NCBI GenBank assembly: GCA_005791855.1
Contig: SXUH01000067.1
Location: 1-13,844, forward strand
DNA: 13,844 bases
Reading direction: 5' to 3'
Source of the DNA: Bdellovibrionales bacterium
Lineage (GTDB): Bacteria; Bdellovibrionota; Bacteriovoracia; Bacteriovoracales; Bacteriovoracaceae
The position numbers were made by a program, and so were the translations under genes. Under the pieces are notes generated by a model. It was not told where the DNA came from. It was given only the letters and a program-made list of their open reading frames with translations, and did not search any database. Of this stretch, positions 1 to 9,655 are shown piece by piece (the stretch's first letter is position 1; each line of letters opens with the position of its first letter).

Positions 1-289
1 AAGCGGAGTTGAGCAGGACCGAAACGTGGTTCAGGCCGAGGGCGACCATCTCCGGGGAGAATCCGGTGAGGCCGGGGAGCCGCTCCTGGGCTTCCTTCCG
101 AGCGGGGAACTCCGGATCCGACCAGTCCTGGGCCAGCTGGTCGAAGAGCTGGTAGACGAGCTCCAGCGGATGTGCCGCCGTCTCTTCCTGCCGAGCTTCC
201 GCCTTCTCGCAGATCTCGTGCACGGCGGGAGCCGTGAGCTTCCCGTCGATCTGGTAGAATTCTCCGAAGAGGTATCTGGTCTTCTTCAT
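1..289 (-). CDS. luxC: LuxC-type acyl-protein/acyl-CoA reductase (N-terminal 96 residues; cut by window edge)
   Basis: This is the N-terminal fragment of a LuxC-family acyl reductase, the NADPH-dependent enzyme that reduces a LuxE-bound or CoA-bound acyl group to a fatty aldehyde. It starts MKKTRYLFGEFYQIDG and stays open to the left edge. Residues about 43-95 follow the LuxC N-terminal pattern as I remember it: a hydrophobic helix (LVYQLFDQLAQDW), an acidic step, a basic stretch (PARKEAQERL), then TGFSPEMV, which matches the TGYSEEM-type segment of Vibrio LuxC. The catalytic Cys and cofactor domain lie outside the window. The ATG (289-287) overlaps the luxE stop as ATGA, and an AAGG Shine-Dalgarno lies 7 nt upstream inside luxE. 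Being next to luxE, its usual partner, strongly supports the call. It is the fifth and last visible gene of the minus-strand operon; whether more genes follow to the left cannot be seen. Confidence 0.85.
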   Translation of the reverse strand, partial: MKKTRYLFGEFYQIDGKLTAPAVHEICEKAEARQEETAAHPLELVYQLFDQLAQDWSDPEFPARKEAQERLPGLTGFSPEMVALGLNHVSVLLNSA

Positions 290-1416
290 GTCTGGGCCTT
301 CTTCTTTAGGATGTCCTCCGCGTGGAGGGCACAGCCTTTGTGTTTCGAGATCCCCGCGCGACCGAGGATCGTAAAGATTGGTGAGTTCTTACCGCAGGGA
401 CACGGCTCCTCGGAGATGACGGCCCAGTCCGTGGAGAGGACGGCGAGGGTCGGCATCATGGCGTTGAAGGGTGTGAGGAGTTCGAGGACTCCGCGTTCCC
501 CCGGGGCGGTGGGCTCCATCGTGACCGGATCCCGGGTGATGAGACGGTTGAACACCGGAACGTGGAACCGGTGAGCTTCGCACTCGTAGTAGGGAGCGCT
601 GTGCTCCGCCAGGCCATAGGCGTCCCGGACCCGGCTCGCCGGGAGGCCGAGCTTCTCGCCGCAGAGGGCGCGGAACTCTTCCTTGGTCGTCTTCTTATCC
701 TCGCTCGCCTTCCAGCCACCGCTGTAGATGAGGAGGCTCTCGGGATCGAGCCGGTACCGCCGCTCGCCGAGGTAGCTTAGGAAGTCGTGGAGGAACGCCG
801 GCATTCCGAGGAAGCGGACGGGCCCTCCTTCCAGGGCGAAGGCGTCGAGCGCCCGGAGGGTCCTCTCCTTGTCGAAGAACCACTCGCCCTTCTCGTCTTT
901 CCGGATGGCGTATTCGACCCGCTTCACCGGAGCGAAGCGGAGCTGGTTGTTCTGCGAGTAGGCCGTCCCGAGGTCGCCCGCCTCCCGGGGATCGTAGTTG
1001 AAGAGCAGGTAGTTCGTCGGCCGCGCGGAGGTGAGGCCCTCCTCCTCCAGGAGGCCGTCGAGCATCCGCTGGACGCGGTCGAGGCTTCCCTGGTCGAACC
1101 AGACCTGAGTCTTCTGGCCGGAGGTTCCGGACGAGGTGAGCTTGAGGACGGCCCGGTCCTCCGGCTGGGAGGTCAGGAGGTGGTACTTCATCGCCGTGAC
1201 TCCGACGTACGGGATCCGGGAGAGGTCCGCCACCGAACGGAGCGTCTCCGGACGGAAACCTTTCTTTTCGTAGAGCCGGCGGAGCTCGGGCGAGTTCTGG
1301 GAATGGAAGAGGGCCATCTCCCGACAGGCGTCGACGAAGAGCTGGTTCTTCTTCTCGTCCCAGCTGAGGGGGGCCTTCACGGAGCAGATCTGTTCGGCGT
1401 TGGGGAATGTGGTCAT
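286..1416 (-). CDS. luxE: LuxE-type acyl-protein synthetase (fatty acid activating subunit)
   Basis: A 376-residue LuxE-family acyl-protein synthetase, close to the roughly 370-380 residues of luminous Vibrionaceae LuxE. In that family the enzyme adenylates a fatty acid, takes it onto a C-terminal cysteine as a thioester and passes it to LuxC for reduction to aldehyde. Visible motifs: the phosphate-binding loop TSSGTSGQKTQ (94-104), YSGGWK (231-236), the adenylate-forming DAYGLAEH (265-272), a CPCG pair (339-342), LGRAG (351-355) and KGCALHAED (360-368). Cys362 sits where LuxE's acyl-accepting cysteine is known (about residue 364), so acyl transfer is probably retained (inference). The ATG overlaps the upstream gene's stop as ATGA, and an AAAGGA lies about 10 nt before it. 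The end overlaps luxC by 4 nt. No luxAB or luxD homologue is in view, so bioluminescence cannot be claimed; the aldehyde may serve lipid or secondary metabolism. Confidence 0.93.
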   Translation of the reverse strand: MTTFPNAEQICSVKAPLSWDEKKNQLFVDACREMALFHSQNSPELRRLYEKKGFRPETLRSVADLSRIPYVGVTAMKYHLLTSQPEDRAVLKLTSSGTSGQKTQVWFDQGSLDRVQRMLDGLLEEEGLTSARPTNYLLFNYDPREAGDLGTAYSQNNQLRFAPVKRVEYAIRKDEKGEWFFDKERTLRALDAFALEGGPVRFLGMPAFLHDFLSYLGERRYRLDPESLLIYSGGWKASEDKKTTKEEFRALCGEKLGLPASRVRDAYGLAEHSAPYYECEAHRFHVPVFNRLITRDPVTMEPTAPGERGVLELLTPFNAMMPTLAVLSTDWAVISEEPCPCGKNSPIFTILGRAGISKHKGCALHAEDILKKKAQT

Positions 1417-2849
1417 ATGAGAGAGTTCCTTTCGTGGTCTGATCTAACGAGCTGGAGCAACTGGTTGGCCTGGGCTCCGTGGATCTTGATGTTCTCCCAG
1501 GAGACCCGGGTGGGGCCGAGGCACTGGAGCCGGAGCGCTAACCGGCCAGTGTGGCGGTACGGGATGAGCCCTGCGAGGAAGAAGCCTGCTCGGCAGAGAC
1601 GTTCGTAGGCACTCCCGAGGCCCGGTTGGTCCAGCGGAACGTCCACCGCGCCGTAGAGGTTCCCGAGGCGGATGTAGTACTTCCAGTCGTCGATGAGGCT
1701 CGTGACCGCGTCGAGCCCCGGGGCTTCGAGGTCGAAGAAGACGGACTTCTGGATCGAGTCGAGCTTGGTCTGGTAGGATCCGGTTCGGGGGATGGAGGAG
1801 AACCTCGAGGACGGAACCCAGCGAACGCCCAGGGGGGTCAGGAGGAAGTCCAGGGCTTCGCCGAGGTTCGGCGGAAGGGTCACGGTCTCACCGAAAGGAT
1901 GGGGAACCCCGAGCCGCACGGCCATGAGGATGGAGTACCGATCCATGTCCTCGGCGTCGGTGCCGATGCCGAGCTTCTTCAGGCTCGCCTGCGTGGTGGA
2001 CCCCTGGACCCCGACGTTCAGGCACATCACGCACGCCGGGTAGTTGAACACTTCCCTCTGGCTGATGAGGTGGTTCGTCACCATGTCGAAGATGCAGTAG
2101 TCCATCGGCGTCCGGGAGATGAGGTCCATGGATTCCGACAGGAGTCGTTTGAAGAGGCCCTTCGATTTCAGACCCGGGTCCACCACTCCGAGGCCCAGGT
2201 CGTAGACCACGGGCGAGGTGTTGAACCTCACGAGGGCGACGTGGCCCACGTGCCTTCCCGCGGGGGAGCTTGCGACCAGCGAGATCATGTCCTGAGCTTC
2301 GAGCTTCCGGCGGATCTTCTCCGGGAAGTAGACCCAGTCGTTGATGTACCTGTAGCCGTAGACGCGGAAGAAGAGCTTCGCGAGCTCGTCGACTTCGAGA
2401 ACCCCCATCAGACGGACCTCGATCTCCTCCGGGTTCGTCTCCGGGAGCGGAGCTTCGAGGTCCGGGTGCTCCGTCGGATCGATGGGAAGGACGGAGACGA
2501 AGGCTTGGCCCTGCGGACCCAGGTTCACGAACTCGAAAGTATCCTCCGAGTCGATGGCCACGTCGGTGCTCCGGAGGTCTCGCTCGAAGATCGGGAGGCC
2601 TCGGTTCAGGAACTTGAGGGAGAGGCTCGCGCCGTCGGTCCGGAGCTCGAGCTCGATCGGGACCTCCCGGGACGTGCTCCGGGAATTTGTGATGATGAGG
2701 TTGAGGATCGTTTCGGTGAACTGCTCCAGTCGCCGGACCTTCTCCGACGGAAGCCGGAGGGCGTCTCCGTAGGAACGGACGAAGGCCTTCGACGGTTTGA
2801 CGAACCGGAGGTCCTGGGGGATCTGGAGGTGCGCCGGGAGGCAACTCAT
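1413..2849 (-). CDS. Fusion of degenerate HATPase (anti-sigma-like) domain and GNAT acyltransferase domain
   Basis: A 478-residue cytoplasmic protein with no signal peptide or membrane segment. Residues about 15-125 resemble the RsbW-like histidine-kinase-type ATPase fold: an N-box-like E46-T-I-L-N50, then LNRGLPIF (81-88) where a DxGxG loop is expected, and NLGPQGQAF (109-117) as a G2-like loop. The G1 aspartate is replaced by Asn, so ATP binding is uncertain. Residues about 145-310 look like a GNAT N-acyltransferase, with LGLGVVDPGLKSKGLFKRLL (218-237) as the acetyl-CoA-binding strand and pyrophosphate loop. Residues 310-478 match nothing I recognise. The start was set at ATG 2849 because it forms an ATGA overlap with the upstream ligase gene and has AAGGA 6 nt away; the longer reading to 3248 gives Arg/Pro-rich out-of-frame sequence. 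Its stop overlaps luxE by 4 nt. It may transfer an acyl group or regulate the pathway; the substrate is unknown. Confidence 0.7.
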   Translation of the reverse strand: MSCLPAHLQIPQDLRFVKPSKAFVRSYGDALRLPSEKVRRLEQFTETILNLIITNSRSTSREVPIELELRTDGASLSLKFLNRGLPIFERDLRSTDVAIDSEDTFEFVNLGPQGQAFVSVLPIDPTEHPDLEAPLPETNPEEIEVRLMGVLEVDELAKLFFRVYGYRYINDWVYFPEKIRRKLEAQDMISLVASSPAGRHVGHVALVRFNTSPVVYDLGLGVVDPGLKSKGLFKRLLSESMDLISRTPMDYCIFDMVTNHLISQREVFNYPACVMCLNVGVQGSTTQASLKKLGIGTDAEDMDRYSILMAVRLGVPHPFGETVTLPPNLGEALDFLLTPLGVRWVPSSRFSSIPRTGSYQTKLDSIQKSVFFDLEAPGLDAVTSLIDDWKYYIRLGNLYGAVDVPLDQPGLGSAYERLCRAGFFLAGLIPYRHTGRLALRLQCLGPTRVSWENIKIHGAQANQLLQLVRSDHERNSLI

Positions 2850-4186
2850 ACGACGTCCTTGACCCGGATGAGCTTTCCGGTCCGGGAGTTCCGTTCCAGG
2901 GTTCCCAGGGGAAGGATGTCCACGGCCAGGGGCCAGACCGATCCCTTCTTCACGAACTCCCGGAAGGACGGACGCAGAGAGAGGAATTCTTGCTCGAAGT
3001 TCTCCGCGAGGCCCGCGAAGTTCTCGGCGGGGGCCGGGGACTCGATGCGGATGACGAGCCGGTCCTTCCCCTCTTCCCGGCGCTTCTCCATCTGGATCGA
3101 CCCCGAGAGCCCGGGGATCTTCAGCGCGACTTCCTGGACTCCATTGTAGTCGACGGAGTCGTAGCCGATCCGAAGCACGTCGTCTCCTCTCCCGAGGAGC
3201 TCGAACCGTCTGGTCTTCCGGCCACAGGCACACTCGCCGCCGAGCCACCGGGCCTTGTCTCCGACGCGGTAGCGGATCACCGGCGTGAGGAAGCGAACCA
3301 GCGGAGTGGCGTAGAGCATCCCGACCTCTCCGAGGTTACAGTGGCGGGTCTCGTCTTCGTTGAAGATCTCGCTGTAGCACTGGTCCTCGTGGGCGTGGAA
3401 GACCCCGGCGGGGGTCTCCGTGCACTGGTAGCCGATGTACCAGGTGTCGACGGTGCCGTACCCCGGGGCGAGGATGGTCTTCACTCCGAACTTCTCCCGG
3501 AGCTCTTTCCGGTCGGCTTCGTAGAGGTGTTCCCCGCCGTAGTAGACTTTTTCGACGCCGAACCCGGTGGCCAGGTGATGGCCCTGGGCTTCGATCTCCC
3601 GGAGCGTGTTGAGGACGACGGAGGCGATCCCGGAGAAGCAGTTTATCTTGAAGAGGTTCGCCACGTTGTAGACGAAGTCCGACGGCGTGTGGTTCGAGAA
3701 CGGGAAGTTCATGTTTCCGTACTGCTGGAGCATCCGGTTCATGTGGATGAAGGTCATGTAGAGGCCGCCGACGGCCCAGAAGTTCCCGACCCGGTCCGAC
3801 GGGAGGAGGCCCGTGGCGTAGAAGCCGCGGCCGTTGAGCTGGTTGATCTCTTCGAGCTCGGTGTGGGTGAAGAGCGTGGTCTTCGGCACGCCGGTGGTGC
3901 CGCCGCTCTGGAAGACGGTGAAGCCGGTGCTCTCCGAAGTGAGGAGGGACCGGCCCCCCGGCGGGACGGCGGTCCGGAGGTCGCTCGCTCCCATGGTGGG
4001 GACGTTCGAGAGCGGGTGCTCGGCCCCGGCGTCGTACCCCCCGAGGCGCTCGCCGTAGAAGGGAGCCTTCGCCCGCGAGTGGGCTACGAGGTCCGCGAGG
4101 CGCTTCCTCCAGAACACGGTCCGCCGGTCGTCGTCGAAGGCCTCGAACTCGTGGAAGAATGGCCCGTGGGCCTTTTCGTACATCAT
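2846..4186 (-). CDS. PaaK-like adenylate-forming ligase (phenylacetate-CoA ligase family)
   Basis: A 446-residue member of the ANL superfamily nearest to phenylacetate-CoA ligase (PaaK, usually about 430-440 residues). These enzymes adenylate a carboxylic acid and pass it to CoA or a carrier thiol. Motifs in order: FQSGGTTGVPKTT phosphate loop (92-104), YYGGEHL (215-221), GYGTVD (242-247), RYRVGDKARW (305-314) with Asp310 in the ribose-binding position, Cys319/Cys321/CGR, the hinge LGRGDDVLRI (331-340), and a C-terminal RTGKLIRVKD (435-444) with the likely catalytic lysine. All expected motifs are present, so it is probably active; the acid substrate cannot be read from sequence. The start is ATGATG; either Met is possible and neither has a good Shine-Dalgarno, but the upstream stop is only 3 nt away, which suggests coupled translation. 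The end overlaps the HATPase-GNAT gene by ATGA. A second acid-activating enzyme beside LuxE suggests two acyl substrates. Confidence 0.85.
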   Translation of the reverse strand: MMYEKAHGPFFHEFEAFDDDRRTVFWRKRLADLVAHSRAKAPFYGERLGGYDAGAEHPLSNVPTMGASDLRTAVPPGGRSLLTSESTGFTVFQSGGTTGVPKTTLFTHTELEEINQLNGRGFYATGLLPSDRVGNFWAVGGLYMTFIHMNRMLQQYGNMNFPFSNHTPSDFVYNVANLFKINCFSGIASVVLNTLREIEAQGHHLATGFGVEKVYYGGEHLYEADRKELREKFGVKTILAPGYGTVDTWYIGYQCTETPAGVFHAHEDQCYSEIFNEDETRHCNLGEVGMLYATPLVRFLTPVIRYRVGDKARWLGGECACGRKTRRFELLGRGDDVLRIGYDSVDYNGVQEVALKIPGLSGSIQMEKRREEGKDRLVIRIESPAPAENFAGLAENFEQEFLSLRPSFREFVKKGSVWPLAVDILPLGTLERNSRTGKLIRVKDVV

Positions 4187-4189
4187 ACG

Positions 4190-5110
4190 TTACCGCAGGA
4201 GCTCGTTGAGGTTGAAGCTTCCGCCGCCGCCGGCACCAAGGGACAGCTGCCGGGCCTCGCTGGAGTTGGCCTTGAAGGCAGGCCGCGGGTTGCGACCGAG
4301 CAGGGTCCCCATGAGATCTTCGAAGTAGTTCTTGTACGGGATGACGTCGGCGCCGACGCGGATCTCTTCGAAGTTAAACCGCGACGCCTCCGGCTCGAGG
4401 ACGGAGGAGAAGTACTTGACCTTCGCCGGCAGGGCCACGGAGTAGATCCGCTCGACTCCCGGGACCGGGATCGCCACGATCCCTTCTGCCCTCCGGAGGT
4501 CCGGATTGAAGTTGAGTTCGATGAGGGCCGCGCCGGTTTCCTCCGGGATGGGTCTTGCGAAGGTCAGGTCCGGAAGGACGGCGTCGGCGTCGGTGATGTA
4601 GAGCTTCGCCCGGTTGGACCGGTCCCAGACGGACTTCACGTACCGGATCCAGTCGCGCATCCGCAGGACGCGGTTTACGATCGGGTCGATGGCGTACCAG
4701 TCATCCGTTCCCTTGACCAGGGTGGTGACGTGGAACCGCCACTCCGGCTGGCTCGTCGACCGGAGGTCGCCGACGATGAAGAGCTTCTTTATGCTCGCAG
4801 TTGCGAGCCCGAGCTTGCGAGCTTCGAGGTGCGCGGTCATGGCCCGGCCGAAGCAGTAGCCGATGGCGCCCGCCGGAGTGTCGTACTTCCGGATGTTCGC
4901 CGGGGTCGTCGCCGCGACCGGATTGTTGGCGGTGGCGAAGAAGAGCGCTTCGAGCTGAGGCCTCTGGAGCGCCTGGAGCGTCTGCGGCGCGGTCTCGGTG
5001 ATGACCCGGTACCGGGCGAGCACGTGCCGGTCATCCTGGAGGCCTTGGTTCTGGCCGAAGGAGAAAGCTGCGAAGGTTATTGAGATCAGCGAAAGAAGAA
5101 TTCTTTTCAT
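4190..5110 (-). CDS. Secreted protein-glutaminase-like (transglutaminase-fold) Cys-His-Asp enzyme
   Basis: A 306-residue exported protein and the first gene of the minus-strand operon. The N-terminus MKRILLSLISITFAAFSFGQ is a signal peptide, with cleavage probably near residues 19-20. The core (about 75-150) has the order expected of the protein-glutamine glutaminase/papain-like fold: Cys86 in AIGYCFGRAM at the start of a helix, His127 in WRFHVTTLV, and Asp142 in WYAIDPIVNR. Spacing and context (small residue before Cys, HV followed by hydrophobics, IDP) match bacterial protein glutaminases, which deamidate Gln side chains in proteins. The substrate is unknown, and a cross-linking or peptidase role is possible. 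The C-terminal 150 residues are not recognised and end with a glycine run near 292-297. ATG 5110 has AGGA 6 nt upstream. Nothing else in this operon looks secreted, so its link to the acyl-reductase genes is unclear. Confidence 0.72.
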   Translation of the reverse strand: MKRILLSLISITFAAFSFGQNQGLQDDRHVLARYRVITETAPQTLQALQRPQLEALFFATANNPVAATTPANIRKYDTPAGAIGYCFGRAMTAHLEARKLGLATASIKKLFIVGDLRSTSQPEWRFHVTTLVKGTDDWYAIDPIVNRVLRMRDWIRYVKSVWDRSNRAKLYITDADAVLPDLTFARPIPEETGAALIELNFNPDLRRAEGIVAIPVPGVERIYSVALPAKVKYFSSVLEPEASRFNFEEIRVGADVIPYKNYFEDLMGTLLGRNPRPAFKANSSEARQLSLGAGGGGSFNLNELLR

Positions 5111-5207
5111 GTCCGTTCCTAAGTTCTATTGGGTGGTTAGATGATGGCCTGCTTGAGTAGCACGTTTATCCGGGAGCATGAAGGTCAGTGAAAGTTTTAC
5201 CATCTCC

Positions 5208-5236
5208 TTTAAATAGAATCCCCGAGGAGATATAGA
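5208..5236 (+). promoter_or_regulatory. Candidate sigma-70-type promoter of the small secreted protein
   Basis: A -35-like TTTAAA (5208-5213), a 17-bp spacer and a -10-like TATAGA (5231-5236) lie just before the leader of the 5267 gene. The stretch is visibly AT-rich compared with its flanks. The match to consensus is moderate (four of six in the -35). No equally good site was found for the divergent operon starting at 5110. Confidence 0.25.
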
Positions 5237-5266
5237 GTCCGCACAACACCTCTCAGGAGCCACAGC

Positions 5267-5596
5267 TTGAAAAACTTTTTAACGAATCTTAAGGTCCTTG
5301 CCCTCGTGGGTATCATGTCCGCCGTTGCGACGGCAGCCCAGGCGAACGACGGAGCTCAAGAGCTCTGCGAGACTGAAGCGATCGAAGCCGCCCAGGCCGC
5401 CACGGGAAATGCCGCTGCCTGCCAGGTAGTGTCCGCGCATCTGACGGCTGCGATCCGAAACACTGCCGCCTTCCGAGTCCGTCTCGGCTGTCCGATCCCA
5501 GTTTTCCACTTCGACGTGACCACACGGCTCCAGCAGGTGCGAGGAGTGGTCGTGTGCAAGGCCACCAAGGTCGAGTGGGCCAAGGACATGTACTAG
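5267..5596 (+). CDS. Small secreted four-cysteine protein, function unknown
   Basis: A 109-residue protein read from a TTG start. The start is supported by AGGAG at 5255-5259 (7-nt spacer) and by the signal peptide that begins exactly there: MKNFLTNLKV, then a hydrophobic stretch (LALVGIMSAVATAA) and a cleavage site AQA-ND after residue 26. The mature part is about 83 residues with four cysteines (Cys34, Cys52, Cys75, Cys97), suggesting two disulfides in the periplasm or outside the cell. No family is recognised. It is monocistronic: the operon at 5110 diverges from it and the peroxidase gene converges on it about 50 bp downstream. The UUG start suggests modest translation. Codon use and the clear secretion signal argue that it is real; several antisense frames over it lack such features. 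Confidence 0.7.
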   Translation: MKNFLTNLKVLALVGIMSAVATAAQANDGAQELCETEAIEAAQAATGNAAACQVVSAHLTAAIRNTAAFRVRLGCPIPVFHFDVTTRLQQVRGVVVCKATKVEWAKDMY

Positions 5597-5605
5597 GAAA
5601 GGACG

Positions 5606-5630
5606 CCCTCCGAGCGCAGGGCCCGGAGGG
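5606..5630. terminator. Hairpin between convergent genes (possible terminator)
   Basis: CCCTCCG (5606-5612) pairs perfectly with CGGAGGG (5624-5630) around an 11-nt loop, 10 bp after the stop of the small secreted protein. There is no following T-run, so it is not a textbook intrinsic terminator, but its placement between convergent stops fits transcription termination or mRNA 3'-end protection. Confidence 0.4.
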
Positions 5631-5640
5631 ACTTAAGCCT

Positions 5641-5657
5641 CGGAGCCTACGGCTCCG
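5641..5657. terminator. Hairpin overlapping the 3' end of the peroxidase gene (possible bidirectional terminator)
   Basis: CGGAGCC (5641-5647) and GGCTCCG (5651-5657) form a 7-bp GC-rich stem with a 3-nt loop. The peroxidase stop codon (TAG on the minus strand, 5649-5647) falls in the loop/stem junction, so one arm also encodes its last residues. No T-run follows on either strand. Confidence 0.45.
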
Positions 5658-6678
5658 GAGTTAGACTCATGTTCACCGTGTTCGGAAGCTGGGGCATCTG
5701 CTGCTTCGGGAACTCTCCGGTCAGGGAGTTCAGGAACGCCACGATGTCGGCGACCTGGTTCTCCTTGAGGTCCATGTCGAGCTGGGTCTTCGCCATGACT
5801 CGCACGGCTTCGTCCAGCGTCTTCACCTTCCCGTTGTGGAAGTACGGAGCGGTGATGGCGACGTTCCTCCAGGTCGGGACTCTCCACTTGTTCTTGTCCT
5901 CGGCCTTCTTCGTCACCTCGTAGCGACCGAGGTCCGCCGTGATGTCGTAGAGCTTGTCGTACTTCGAGCCGGGGATCTGCGGGAACGGCTGGTAGTTCCC
6001 CTCGCCCATCTTGAAGCCTTCTCCGCTGAAGTTCTCGCCGGTGTGGCAGGAGGTGCAGCCGATCTCATCCACGAGCTTCATCCCCCGGAGCTCCTGAGCG
6101 TTCAGAGCCTTCTTGTCGCCCTTCATGTACTTGTCGAACGGCGAGTTCGGCGTGATGAGCGTGCGCTCGTAGGACGCGAGGGCCTTGGCCATGGTGTCGA
6201 TGGTGATGCGCTTCTCCTTCGGAAACGCCTTCTTGAAGGCTTCGACGTAGCCGGGGATCTTCTTCAACCGTTCGATGGTGAAGTCGTGCGAGGTCATCCC
6301 CATCTCCACGCCGTTGATGAGGGGCCCCTTCGCCTGCTCCTCGAGGGAGGGTGCGCGGCCGTCCCAGAACTGCACGGTCTGGAAGGCTGCGTTCCACACC
6401 GTCGGAGACCCTCGGCCTCCTCGCTGTCCGTGGATCCCCACGCCCACGGGCCTCCCGTCGCCGCCGTGGAACATGACGTTGTGGCAGGAGTTACAGGAGA
6501 TGGTTCCGTCGATGGAGAGCCGCGGATCGAACCACAGCATCTTCCCGAGCTCGACCTTCTCCGGAGTCATCGGATTATCCGCCGGTGTCGGAACCTTGTC
6601 CGGGAGCGCTTTGAACTCCGCGCGGGCGGTGACCGTGAACAGGACCGTCAGGGTAAATAAGATTTTTCTTAGGTGCAT
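5647..6678 (-). CDS. Di-haem cytochrome c peroxidase (CcpA/MauG family), periplasmic
   Basis: A 343-residue periplasmic enzyme of the bacterial di-haem peroxidase family, which reduces hydrogen peroxide to water with electrons from cytochrome c or a cupredoxin. It has a signal peptide (MHLRKILFTLTVLFTVTARA, about residues 1-20) and two haem-binding motifs, CNSCH (62-66) and CTSCH (208-212). Between them lie SPTVWNAAFQ, the QFWDGRAPSLEEQAKGP segment containing the inter-haem Trp105, and VEM with the conserved acid Glu125. His83 in GIHG is in the place of the distal His of the peroxidatic haem, and Met295 in VRVMAKTQL is the likely ligand of the electron-transfer haem. Length and order are those of classical CcpA rather than MauG (inference). 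The ATG has AGGGG 6 nt upstream. The gene is single, divergent from ppsR, with an AT-rich 75-bp gap between them. Confidence 0.95.
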   Translation of the reverse strand: MHLRKILFTLTVLFTVTARAEFKALPDKVPTPADNPMTPEKVELGKMLWFDPRLSIDGTISCNSCHNVMFHGGDGRPVGVGIHGQRGGRGSPTVWNAAFQTVQFWDGRAPSLEEQAKGPLINGVEMGMTSHDFTIERLKKIPGYVEAFKKAFPKEKRITIDTMAKALASYERTLITPNSPFDKYMKGDKKALNAQELRGMKLVDEIGCTSCHTGENFSGEGFKMGEGNYQPFPQIPGSKYDKLYDITADLGRYEVTKKAEDKNKWRVPTWRNVAITAPYFHNGKVKTLDEAVRVMAKTQLDMDLKENQVADIVAFLNSLTGEFPKQQMPQLPNTVNMSLTPEP

Positions 6679-6753: not shown

Positions 6754-7611
6754 ATGCAGCCGCACGACAAATTGAAAGTCATAGTCATCTCGGACGGTAC
6801 CGGAGAAACAGCGTCGGCCATAACCCGGGCCGCCATGACGCAGTTCCAGGATAAGGAGATCTTCTTCACCCGCTACAAGAACATCCGGACCAAGCAGCAG
6901 ATCGATGCGATCTTTCAGGAAGCCGCGATCCACCACGACATCGTGGTCTACACCATCGTTTCGGTGGAGCTCCGGGCCTACATCGCCGAGCTCTCCAAGC
7001 GGGACCACGTGCGGTCGGTGGACGTGATGGGCCCGCTCCTCACCACGTTCTCGAACTTCTTCGAAGCCGAACCGAACTACCAGCCGGGCCTGCTCCACGC
7101 GGTGAACGACCAGTACTTCAAGCGCGTCGCCGCCATCGAGTTCACCCTGAACCACGACGACGGGAGGAACATCAACTCCCTGGAAGAGGCCGACGTGATC
7201 CTCGTCGGAATCTCCCGGACCTCGAAGACCCCGCTCTCCATGTACCTCTCCCTCGAGGGGACGAAGGTGGTCAACGTCCCCATCGTCATGGGCGTGCACC
7301 TGCCGGAGAAGATCTTCCAGGTGGACCAGCGGAAGATCTTCGGCCTCACCATCGACGCGGACGCCCTCTTCCAGATCCGGAAGAACCGCCTGACCCGGCT
7401 TGGCCTCTCGAACGACGAGGGGGACTACGCCGACATCGCCAAGGTCTCCGAGGAGATCGAGTGGGCCAACCGGATCTTCTCCGAGAACAAGCGCTGGCCC
7501 GTGTTCAACGTCACCGGCAAGGCCCTCGAGGAGACCGCGGCGGAGATCATCAAGCTCCTGAACATGCGGAAGGTGAACCGCTTCAAGCAGTCGAAGCGGT
7601 TCGAAGAGTAG
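6754..7611 (+). CDS. ppsR: PpsR/PDRP family kinase/pyrophosphorylase (DUF299)
   Basis: A 285-residue bifunctional regulator that uses ADP to phosphorylate a threonine of PEP synthase or pyruvate phosphate dikinase (inactivation), and Pi to remove it with release of pyrophosphate (reactivation). It sets carbon flow between pyruvate and PEP in the cytoplasm. Diagnostic parts: VISDGTGETASAITRA (11-26) at the N-terminus, VDVMGPLL (89-96), and the nucleotide-binding loop GISRTSKTPLSMYLS (152-166). Length is normal for DUF299. ATG 6754 was chosen because family members begin a few residues before the SDGTGETA motif; an in-frame GTG at 6673 would add 27 residues of AT-rich non-homologous sequence and overlap the divergent peroxidase gene. 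No Shine-Dalgarno is evident. Whether the target is PEP synthase or dikinase cannot be told, since neither gene is in the window. Confidence 0.93.
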   Translation: MQPHDKLKVIVISDGTGETASAITRAAMTQFQDKEIFFTRYKNIRTKQQIDAIFQEAAIHHDIVVYTIVSVELRAYIAELSKRDHVRSVDVMGPLLTTFSNFFEAEPNYQPGLLHAVNDQYFKRVAAIEFTLNHDDGRNINSLEEADVILVGISRTSKTPLSMYLSLEGTKVVNVPIVMGVHLPEKIFQVDQRKIFGLTIDADALFQIRKNRLTRLGLSNDEGDYADIAKVSEEIEWANRIFSENKRWPVFNVTGKALEETAAEIIKLLNMRKVNRFKQSKRFEE

Positions 7612-7618
7612 AATCTCC

Positions 7619-7741
7619 TGAATCTGCCTTAAGGGCGCCAAGTTCAAGGCGACAAGGAGTGAGGGAGGAGGCGTACGTCAGTACGTCGCACGACCGATCG
7701 ACGCAGGCAACGCCGAAATTGGGGACCTTAAGGCAGATTCA
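7619..7741. repeat. 123-bp imperfect palindromic element with perfect 16-bp terminal inverted repeats
   Basis: The ends TGAATCTGCCTTAAGG (7619-7634) and its exact reverse complement (7726-7741) form a perfect 16-bp inverted repeat. Further nested blocks also pair: CCAA (7638-7641) with TTGG (7719-7722), TTC (7643-7645) with GAA (7715-7717), GGCG (7648-7651) with CGCC (7711-7714), and CGTAC (7672-7676) with GTACG (7681-7685) around a central GTCA. The whole element is symmetric about 7680 and could fold into a long cruciform or RNA hairpin. It fills the gap between convergent genes and probably serves as a bidirectional terminator. Its outermost three bases on the right are the stop codon of the kinase gene. 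It resembles a mobile palindromic repeat (MITE or REP-like), but no coding capacity or convincing target duplication is seen. Confidence 0.8.
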
Positions 7742-9655
7742 CTCGAGGAAGTGCTTCTTGTTCTCTTCGATCTTGAACTCCACCCGCTTCTCCGTTCCGA
7801 GGATCGGGTTCACCACCTTCCCTTCGTAGGTCCCTTCGGTGATCTGGACGTCCTTGAACGGGAGGTCGCGCTCGACGGTCTCTCCGCCCTCTTCGTAGAC
7901 GAGCTTCGATCCAGCGGTGTAGTTCAGCGAGGTCGTGAGGAGGCCCGCGCGGGTCTTCTCCAGCGGCGGGACGGAGATGACCTCGGAGGTCTTCCCGTCG
8001 TCGAGGGTGACCTTGGTGACGAAGGGAGTGAAGCCGGATTTCTTGACGATCACCGAGACCGCCTGGCCCAGGGGAACCTTGATCGGCCTGCCGATGTAGT
8101 CGGTGCGGATGCCGTCGACCACCACTTCCATCGAGATGTCGATGCCGCTCAGGACGATCTCCCCGGTGGCCTCGGCCGGGTCCCGGACCTTCTGGGAAGT
8201 GCTCACGGGCGCGCTGGTGACCACCGGAGCCGTCGGCGCGGTGGCCTCGGACTTGATCCCGAAGACCTTCTCGAAGAGCTCCGGCCGGAAGTACGCCACA
8301 CCCATGACGGAGGCGGCGATGAGGATCATGATGATCTGCTTGCCGGAGGAGGAGGACTCCTCCGCGGTCTCCACGTCCTGCTTGTTCATCCCCTGGGTGA
8401 TGGTCTTCTCGATCCGCCGGGAGACGGTGCTGGTCAGGCGCGTGTTCTTCGACGCCGCCTGCGCGGGGGCGACGATGGACCCCTTGTTCCCGAGCTTCTT
8501 CGTCTTCGTGAGGTCCGGCTTGTTGTTGATCTCGATGTTGACCTGCGGACTGATCGGGAGCTCGAGCTCCCGCACGCGGGCGCGCGGGTCCTCGGCCTTC
8601 ACGCCGAGCGGTTCCTTCCGGAAGATCTTCCCGGTCTTGCTCTCTTCGTTCTTCATGTCCTCGATGTAGGAGGCCGTGTCGATCTTCCCGTACTCGACGA
8701 ACTTATCCCGGTCCCGGGCGATCTCGTTCCCGAAGAGGTCGTCGGCGAACTTCCGGAGGTCCGAAGCGTTGAACTCCGGGTACTTCGAGTAGAGGAAGCG
8801 CACGAGGGCGCGGTTCATCTGGTCCAGGTCTTCGTAGCGGTTCGAGCGGTCCTTCGAGAGGGCCTTCATGACGATGGCGTCGAGTTCCTTCGGGACCGTC
8901 GGGTTGATCTCCGACGGGGGCCGGATCTTGCAGGCCTGGATCTGCTTCAGGACGGCGAGGTCGTTGTTCGCCTGGAAGAGCTTCTGCGAACACAGGAGCT
9001 CCCAGAGGGTCACGCCCACGGCGAACTCGTCGTAGCGGGCGTCGAGCTCGATCCCCTCGAGGTACTCGGGGGCGAGGTACGAGAGCTTCCCCTTGATCGT
9101 CCCGGCCTGGGTGGCTTCCGAGTTGGTGTTCGACTTCGCGATTCCGAAATCGATCACCTTCACCGCGCCGTCGTAGGTGAGCATGATGTTGTGCGGGGAG
9201 ATGTCCCGGTGGATGATGTTGTACGGCTTGCCGGTGAGCTTGTCCGTGAACGTGTGCGCGTAGTGGAGGCCCTGGCAGACCTGGGAGATGATGTAGCAGG
9301 AGATCTCCACGGCGAAGCCGCCCTTCTTCTTGTCCCGCAGGCGATCGAGGTACTGCTTGAGGTTGGCGCCGTGGATGTACTCCATGGCGGTGTAGAGCTG
9401 GCCGTTGGTCTTCCCGTAGTCGTAGACCTGCATGATGTTCGGGTGGAGCATGCCGAAGGTGATGTTGAGCTCGTCCTGGAACATGCGCACGAACGCTTCG
9501 TCGTTCGAGAACTGCGGCTGGACCATCTTGATGGCGACGACCTTATTGGCCTGCTCCCCGAGGTAGCGGGCACGGCAGATCTTCGCCATGCCACCGTCAA
9601 CCAGGTGATCCAGGATTAGATATTTTCCGAACCTTTGAAATTTCTTGTCGCTCAT
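7739..9655 (-). CDS. Membrane-anchored Ser/Thr protein kinase with C-terminal PEGA region
   Basis: A 638-residue Hanks-type kinase. The kinase domain (about 10-290) has a glycine-rich loop variant LVDGGMAKICRA (18-29), catalytic Lys43 in VAIKMV, alpha-C Glu62, HRDISPHN (149-156) with catalytic Asp151, IDFGIAK (168-174), and KLSYLAPE (190-197). The RD signature suggests activation-loop phosphorylation; that loop is Ser/Thr-rich. A charged linker (about 320-437) leads to one transmembrane helix (about 440-456), so the kinase is cytoplasmic. An external part follows with a Thr/Ser/Pro/Val linker and a PEGA-like domain (about 497-565; VVVDG, PLGQAVSVIVKKSGF), possibly followed by a second degenerate one. 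No PASTA repeats are present. The start has GAGG only 4 nt before the ATG. It lies 88 bp after the lipoprotein gene and may have its own promoter. The TGA stop lies in the palindromic repeat. The substrate is unknown. Confidence 0.93.
   Translation of the reverse strand: MSDKKFQRFGKYLILDHLVDGGMAKICRARYLGEQANKVVAIKMVQPQFSNDEAFVRMFQDELNITFGMLHPNIMQVYDYGKTNGQLYTAMEYIHGANLKQYLDRLRDKKKGGFAVEISCYIISQVCQGLHYAHTFTDKLTGKPYNIIHRDISPHNIMLTYDGAVKVIDFGIAKSNTNSEATQAGTIKGKLSYLAPEYLEGIELDARYDEFAVGVTLWELLCSQKLFQANNDLAVLKQIQACKIRPPSEINPTVPKELDAIVMKALSKDRSNRYEDLDQMNRALVRFLYSKYPEFNASDLRKFADDLFGNEIARDRDKFVEYGKIDTASYIEDMKNEESKTGKIFRKEPLGVKAEDPRARVRELELPISPQVNIEINNKPDLTKTKKLGNKGSIVAPAQAASKNTRLTSTVSRRIEKTITQGMNKQDVETAEESSSSGKQIIMILIAASVMGVAYFRPELFEKVFGIKSEATAPTAPVVTSAPVSTSQKVRDPAEATGEIVLSGIDISMEVVVDGIRTDYIGRPIKVPLGQAVSVIVKKSGFTPFVTKVTLDDGKTSEVISVPPLEKTRAGLLTTSLNYTAGSKLVYEEGGETVERDLPFKDVQITEGTYEGKVVNPILGTEKRVEFKIEENKKHFLE

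Follow-up and report, generated by a model that had tools for sequence, protein, structure and literature searches.

A conserved LuxE-LuxC operon without luciferase genes in an uncultured Bdellovibrionales bacterium: two PaaK-like ligases, GNAT-fold proteins and a candidate aldehyde product

LuxE and LuxC are familiar chiefly for providing the aldehyde that bacterial bioluminescence requires. LuxE activates an acid by adenylation, carries it on a C-terminal cysteine and hands it on to a cysteine of LuxC, which uses NADPH to reduce the acyl group to the aldehyde. Leupeptin, a peptide aldehyde, was reportedly found by Li and colleagues in 2020 to be made by discrete ligases. The leupeptin pathway of Gammaproteobacteria consists of leupABCD and a transporter, according to passages of PMC11480411 and PMC8283571 that cite Li et al. 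2020; PMC8283571 gives 315,353-321,183 of CP011636 as the position of leupABCD. Here we describe an operon in which LuxE and LuxC stand beside two PaaK-like adenylate-forming ligases, GNAT-fold proteins, an MFS exporter and a secreted glutaminase-like enzyme, and which may make a small exported aldehyde. It begins in a stretch of 13,844 bp, the window, which is the whole of contig SXUH01000067.1 (C448) of assembly GCA_005791855.1, the 60% complete genome of an uncultured Bdellovibrionales bacterium.

Five minus-strand genes run at positions 5110-4190, 4186-2846, 2849-1413, 1416-286 and from 289 to the window edge, joined by one 3-bp gap and three 4-bp ATGA overlaps; an initial annotation of this DNA had already described these same-strand genes and their junctions, and all of them are where it placed them. 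The left window edge is a contig end that cuts luxC. The first 28 bases of the window are the end of contig C433, reversed (a 28-bp end overlap), and C433 (locus L004, 4,286 bp) carries luxC onward in frame (L004 1-2397). The full set, in order, is GlnD (our label for the window's protein-glutaminase-like enzyme), PaaK1, RsbW-like:GNAT, LuxE, LuxC:PaaK2, MFS and GNAT2, with sizes in amino acids (aa):

Window 4190..5110, minus strand: GlnD, secreted protein-glutaminase-like enzyme, 306 aa, assigned by fold match and a Cys-His-Asp triad
Window 2846..4186, minus strand: PaaK1, PaaK-like adenylate-forming ligase, 446 aa, matching solved PaaK enzymes
Window 1413..2849, minus strand: fusion of an RsbW-like domain (pseudo-ATPase) to a GNAT domain, 478 aa, assigned by family profile and model
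Window 286..1416, minus strand: LuxE-type acyl-protein synthetase, 376 aa, PF04443 E 5e-34
Window 2..289, minus strand: start of luxC, part of the 885-aa LuxC:PaaK fusion, assigned by the in-frame join with C433
L004 2397-3653: MFS exporter, PF05977 above its cut-off and TIGR00900 below
L004 3650 onward: GNAT2, a GNAT-like gene truncated where the contig ends

LuxC reads without a stop into the second PaaK-like ligase, giving a joined protein of 885 aa, and a protein record of the same length (P0118) is identical to the contig join except at residue 723; one 21,719-bp contig is listed for this record, for the RsbW-like:GNAT fusion protein of the window and for GlnD alike. The MFS gene and then GNAT2 follow LuxC:PaaK2, both junctions overlapping, and beyond the join the last 100 bases of C433, where GNAT2 is cut, had no other match within the genome. 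The operon is real, is longer than the window and has at least seven genes; the five of the initial annotation are extended by the remainder of LuxC:PaaK, the MFS gene and GNAT2. The genes are probably co-transcribed and biosynthetic, in support of the co-production proposed at the outset. Extension to the left was a check set beforehand, and it led from luxC into a PaaK domain, an MFS gene and a GNAT-like gene with no luxAB; the earlier remark that LuxE and LuxC lack LuxA, LuxB and LuxD here holds on the continuation contig too, none of the three genes being present in the portion of the cluster that the two contigs cover. Within that portion no LuxD thioesterase, acyl carrier protein (ACP) or lipid gene could be recognised, and no aminotransferase, alcohol dehydrogenase, sugar or glycosyltransferase gene among its scanned proteins. 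A promoter and terminator scan of positions 4150-5700 found nothing, and a tRNA scan of the window found none.

The RsbW-like:GNAT fusion protein was used as a probe for the cluster elsewhere. A search of 5.8 billion sequences, with 7,996 candidates scored, returned 23 matches, namely the protein itself, 20 close relatives and 2 distant ones, and the genome collection yielded 19 loci with the fusion, 18 of them close (L007-L024) and one distant (L025). The 18 come from uncultured bacteria labelled Bdellovibrionota, Elusimicrobia and others. Order was counted over these close loci wherever the contig reaches: PaaK1 adjoins the fusion gene in 17/17 loci, LuxE is next after the fusion in 14/17, LuxC:PaaK2 follows LuxE in 11/11, the MFS gene is next after LuxC:PaaK2 in 8/10, GNAT2 lies within the cluster in 10/10, and GlnD is directly upstream in 9/14. 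LuxE is present in all ten genomes of this set that were searched for it; in the three order exceptions LuxE-LuxC lie about 11 kb off on the same contig (L013) or on other contigs (L019, L021). Identity to the window proteins is 47-60% for PaaK1, 47-57% for LuxE, 44-52% for LuxC, 35-43% for GlnD, 36-41% for PaaK2, 32-46% for the fusion, 34-39% for MFS and 23-36% for GNAT2. Gene order is conserved across the labelled phyla far beyond chance. In L007, L012 and L023 all seven genes of a complete cluster lie on one contig. The spread of the cluster is patchy, because the fusion protein occurs in only one of 58 relatives (the window's own genome), in 13/368 genomes of the window's phylum (11 of them strong matches, its own genome counted) and in 16/294 genomes of the phylum of L013, labelled Elusimicrobia (10 strong). 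Conservation of order, which the initial annotation had proposed as a check, is therefore found in distant relatives but not within the genus, where 0/25 congeners searched carry the fusion. A tree of PaaK1 (21 rows) mixes the labelled phyla; horizontal transfer is not shown by it, because only 4/18 inner branches are well supported.

The assignments of LuxE and LuxC rest on family profiles, structure and cysteines. LuxE matches PF04443 (E 5e-34); the luxC start in the window alone scores 14.5 of 21 bits, under the cut-off, and its continuation on C433 matches PF05893 with E 3e-70. Both proteins align with their counterparts in the solved LuxC-LuxE complex 7xc6. The C-terminal Cys 362 of LuxE, which we take to be at the position of the acyl-accepting cysteine of lux LuxE, is found in 20/23 rows with three gaps, and Cys 281 of LuxC in 19/20 rows with one gap, so each cysteine is kept in every gap-free row. 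Neither protein reaches the equivalog level of the long-chain enzymes: LuxE scores 79.9 bits against NF052244 (long-chain acyl-protein synthetase, cut-off 550), and LuxC 103.6 bits against NF052251 (long-chain reductase, cut-off 750), the latter score being for the 798 aa encoded on C433, without the 87 N-terminal residues. The window's genome has a second LuxC-type gene, on contig C61.

PaaK1 matches solved PaaK enzymes (phenylacetate-coenzyme A ligases) with E 2e-19, and its Pfam AMP-binding score is 24.1 of 29.9, under the cut-off. Its C-terminal Lys 438 is kept in 27/28 rows, paralogues included, the remaining row being a gap. The PaaK equivalog TIGR02155, with a cut-off of 646 bits, gives 88.8 bits for PaaK1 and 78.9 for the LuxC-fused domain. 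The PaaK-like ligase named in the initial annotation stands, as does its view of an acid-activating ligase additional to LuxE, but there are two PaaK units rather than one, the other being fused to LuxC.

The fusion protein alone has no Pfam match. By family profile and model, residues 4-124 match RsbW/SpoIIAB and the chain from about residue 142 matches GNAT enzymes; an RsbW-type fold is predicted in the N-terminal part, and the C-terminal part looks GNAT-like in the model. Three ATP-site residues, presumably the N-box Glu and Asn and the G1 Asp in motif terms, are kept in 0/21 family rows at each column, with one gap at the first two columns. What had been called an ATPase thus appears from these columns to be a degenerate fold that has no kinase site. 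The acetyl-coenzyme A motif A of GNAT enzymes is R/Q-x-x-G-x-G/A, and in the fusion its first Gly is replaced by Ser in 17/21 rows. Window-type GNAT2 copies had a Pfam GNAT match in 0/4 scanned and their wider-family relatives in 3/3 scanned, and four of five GNAT2-type proteins scanned weakly resemble the beta-lysine acetyltransferase AblB, far under the cut-off. The probable acyltransferase of the initial annotation is therefore borne out as an acyltransferase-type domain, whereas acyl transfer itself is left uncertain by the altered motif A. GNAT2 as a paralogue of the GNAT half of the fusion found no support (profile comparison probability 0.4%).

A divergent cluster (L045) carries, in order, an MFS gene, an unassigned 456-aa open reading frame (ORF) with a resemblance, judged by eye, to an adenylating ligase, then PaaK, LuxE, LuxC:PaaK, RsbW:GNAT, a Cache-HAMP-SpoIIE phosphatase and a STAS protein. 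At L045 9048-13134 the RsbW:GNAT gene is followed by the phosphatase, annotated Cache-HAMP-SpoIIE-HATPase, and the STAS protein, an apparent partner-switching module. Because this module adjoins the RsbW:GNAT gene, this one locus suggests a regulated enzyme as the origin of the fusion and, in the window's branch, a loss of the kinase site with retention of the fold.

GlnD scores 19.4 of 25 bits against PF18626, under the cut-off; two relatives scanned gave 23.5 and 17.8 bits, and precomputed PF18626 matches exist for 24/94 relatives. The structure model has a pLDDT (predicted local distance difference test) score of 89, and its only solved matches at E <= 0.001 are two protein glutaminases, 8z3i (Foldseek E 1.8e-5) and 3a56. 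Residues C86, H127 and D142 are invariant in 62/62 aligned relatives (62 of the 94 were aligned), and the triad is kept in 16/16 rows from the loci and the window. The N-termini are hydrophobic and signal-like, as judged by hydropathy only and not by a signal-peptide program. The model matches, triad and N-terminus agree with the secreted protein-glutaminase-like enzyme predicted from the DNA alone. GlnD was also searched for in nine genomes, the window's own and eight whose locus is cut or has no GlnD: five of the eight have a good copy elsewhere, two a weak copy (L017, L018) and one none (L015).

LuxC:PaaK is more widespread than the full cluster. Its search (7,992 candidates scored) gave 177 matches, of which the 120 among the matches listed are 829-941 aa long, and it is matched at least in part in 119/368 genomes of the window's phylum and in 23/25 congeners of the host. 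Fourteen contexts of this wider family were chosen by hand in the host's phylum, some of them cut by contig ends. A GNAT2-LuxE-LuxC:PaaK core is found in ten of them, with an adjacent PaaK in seven and an adjacent MFS gene in six, and no GlnD match was found within the 14; three congeners (L105, L115, L116) have the three-gene run with no adjacent PaaK or MFS. Genome G225 holds two LuxC:PaaK clusters (L043, L112), one with an RsbW-like:GNAT gene and the other MFS-LuxE-LuxC:PaaK-PaaK. Farther away, the order PaaK-MFS-GNAT2-LuxE-LuxC:PaaK is found on plasmids of Streptomyces sp. NBC_00158, S. cattleyicolor and Streptomyces sp. BHT-5-2, and a Salmonella conjugative plasmid (L118 4653-9530) carries LuxE, LuxC:PaaK and PaaK genes and then an interrupted GNAT-like frame. 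Downstream of a Streptomyces PaaK-MFS-GNAT-LuxE-LuxC:PaaK operon, at L119 9007-10374, are three genes annotated as peptidase-inhibitor family I36. A plasmid of Streptomyces europaeiscabiei (L123 25-8483) has YcaO (opposite strand), an MBL-fold protein, a 51-aa ORF, DUF692, LuxE and an unfused LuxC; this looks like a peptide-type cluster of the RiPP (ribosomally synthesised and post-translationally modified peptide) kind, in which carboxylate reduction may be the last step. LuxE and LuxC are also carried by a Chloroflexota plasmid, where the neighbouring annotations include none of the partners PaaK, MFS and GNAT.

Our preferred explanation, to which we give slightly under an even chance, is that the operon makes a small exported aldehyde-bearing molecule by free-standing enzymes and not by a mega-synthetase; from the gene content we infer an N-acylated amino- or peptidyl-aldehyde. 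The substrates activated by the PaaK units would be carboxylic acids, with amino acids or their N-acyl derivatives the likeliest, and these units would also help to form amide bonds; the GNAT-fold proteins would N-acylate an amine; LuxE-LuxC would reduce the final carboxylate to the aldehyde; and the MFS protein would export the product. Outside the cytoplasm GlnD would hydrolyse or modify an amide, either in the product or in a target protein. Export followed by trimming would fit the pairing of an exporter with a secreted amidase; trimming of the exported molecule, action on a target and self-protection are all roles that GlnD may have. The RsbW-like domain would probably be a regulatory or docking domain left over from an ancestor that worked by partner switching. 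Catalytic-type residues are retained in the two PaaK units, LuxE, LuxC and GlnD. The conversion of carboxylate to aldehyde would be the best-supported step, by homology and the retained cysteines. A pair of PaaK units together with GNAT-fold genes and an exporter is what, by analogy with leupeptin, a ligase-built and acylated peptide aldehyde would require. As the sequenced cluster shows no recognisable aminotransferase, alcohol dehydrogenase, sugar or ACP gene, synthesis may stop at the aldehyde. The AblB-like GNAT2 relatives and the LuxE-LuxC pair of the RiPP-like cluster are weak hints of amino-acid-type substrates.

Several points weigh against this explanation. The sequence gives no substrate, and the peptide-aldehyde part leans partly on analogy with leupeptin-type pathways. 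PF05893 alone is not specific, because 7/14 control genomes exceed its cut-off, and the AblB similarity is, as noted, far below threshold. Acyl transfer is uncertain, because motif A is altered in the fusion and none of the four window-type GNAT2 copies has a Pfam GNAT match. LuxE-LuxC are apart from PaaK1 and the fusion gene in L013, L019 and L021, three cluster-bearing genomes have either a weak GlnD (L017, L018) or none that was found (L015), and LuxE-LuxC pairs also occur with none of these partners beside them, as on the Chloroflexota plasmid, and with fatty-acid genes, as in Aeromonas islands. A wider proposal, which we consider somewhat improbable, is that an operon class spanning phyla and free of nonribosomal peptide synthetases (NRPS) makes N-acyl (poly)amino aldehydes through free-standing PaaK, GNATs and LuxE-LuxC:PaaK, that in the window's branch an RsbW domain became joined to the acyltransferase before losing its kinase site, and that once exported the product is processed or resisted by the secreted amidase of glutaminase fold.

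A fatty-aldehyde or lipid pathway, in which LuxE-LuxC would reduce a fatty acid and the aldehyde or an amide-linked lipid would go to the membrane or serve as a signal, draws on the alignment with 7xc6, both cysteines kept, and on the luxC/luxE genes that accompany fatty-acid genes in Aeromonas flagellar glycan islands, for which part of PMC7874193 suggests a liposugar. An aldehyde- or amide-linked lipid had been the suggestion of the initial annotation, and nothing points to a lipid in particular: the sequenced cluster has no recognised LuxD thioesterase, ACP or lipid gene, the two PaaK units, GNAT-fold genes and efflux-type MFS would fit a soluble product better, and the 79.9 of 550 bits for LuxE and 103.6 of 750 for LuxC speak against long-chain enzymes, with the proviso that such cut-offs would also exclude distant fatty-acid enzymes. 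We judge this pathway unlikely. A flagellar glycan island was rejected for the present locus, no sugar, glycosyltransferase or ACP genes having been recognised among the scanned proteins of the sequenced cluster, and anti-phage defence was rejected with no PADLOC match to seven cluster proteins (GNAT2 taken from L017, the copy of the window's genome being cut).

The protein-glutaminase fold is related to transglutaminases, and GlnD, which has that fold and a Cys-His-Asp triad and travels with the cluster (directly upstream in 9/14 loci), might act as a transglutaminase that attaches the acyl or aldehyde group to a secreted or surface protein. This is quite improbable in our estimate: 3/9 searched genomes, all cluster-bearing, have a weak GlnD or none, the 14 wider-family contexts have no match, and no conserved substrate protein was noticed in the fetched loci, though no search was aimed at one. 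That the locus is an ordinary lux operon truncated at the contig end, or some other known relative of bioluminescence systems, is hardly credible. LuxE followed by LuxC would suit it, but the continuation contig, with P0118 in agreement, brings a PaaK domain, an MFS exporter and a GNAT-like gene and not luxDAB, by which the cut-off lux operon is rejected; and the sole luciferase-family (PF00296) gene found in the 60% complete genome lies outside the operon, on contig C90, and belongs to a family present in 10/14 control genomes.

Beside the operon in the window, a small ORF with a signal-like start at 5267-5596 is divergent from it and matches the Bd0108 predatory-switch family very weakly, under the threshold (E 0.037). 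A gene for a MauG/MbnH-like di-haem enzyme (5647-6678) lies near the operon, and a PpsR-type phosphoenolpyruvate-synthase regulatory kinase gene (6754-7611) adjoins a Ser/Thr protein kinase gene (7739-9655) with a weak sub-threshold PEGA match.

At this locus LuxE-LuxC belong, without luciferase in the cluster, to a conserved multi-enzyme operon found in uncultured bacteria whose labels span several phyla, and a domain of the sigma-factor partner-switching kind seems to have been joined to an enzyme that takes part in making a small molecule. Should the operon yield an exported aldehyde, a so far unsampled class of compounds, likely to act as protease inhibitors or signals, would be present in these bacteria, and the lux reductase would represent just one of several uses to which a broader module for carboxylate reduction is put. 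To the extent of the searches made, this conserved gene set is undescribed, in keeping with the initial annotation, which knew of no such pathway: none was found in open-access titles and abstract starts, a scope that leaves out most subscription journals and gives no proof of absence, and the available portions of PMC11480411, PMC8283571, PMC10548850 and PMC7874193 hold no description of it.

Compared with known systems, the operon shares adjacent genes and aligned conserved cysteines with the LuxC-LuxE of luminous bacteria (7xc6), but its LuxC is fused to a PaaK ligase, LuxA, LuxB and LuxD are missing, and its LuxE and LuxC lie far under the NCBIfam equivalog cut-offs of long-chain lux-type enzymes. 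PaaK1 has the overall match, the nucleotide motif and the C-terminal Lys in common with the PaaK-type ligases 4r1l and 2y4o, and differs from the phenylacetate-coenzyme A ligase PaaK in falling far under TIGR02155 (88.8 of 646 bits). RsbW/SpoIIAB anti-sigma kinases have the ATP-site Glu, Asn and Asp that the fusion keeps in 0/21 rows, and the fusion, unlike them, is joined to a GNAT domain. GlnD shares the fold and the Cys-His-Asp triad with the protein glutaminases 3a56 and 8z3i, at about 20% identity over about half the chain and under the PF18626 cut-off, and unlike them sits in a biosynthetic operon. The livipeptin locus of Streptomyces lividans, as PMC10548850 presents it, uses a tRNA-utilising enzyme with an NRPS, unlike the operon here, and the text has 0 occurrences of 'LuxE' and of 'acyl-CoA reductase'. 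The leupeptin pathway, likened here by its description in parts of the cited articles, is a small operon beside a transporter with a peptide-aldehyde product, as the operon described here may also be.

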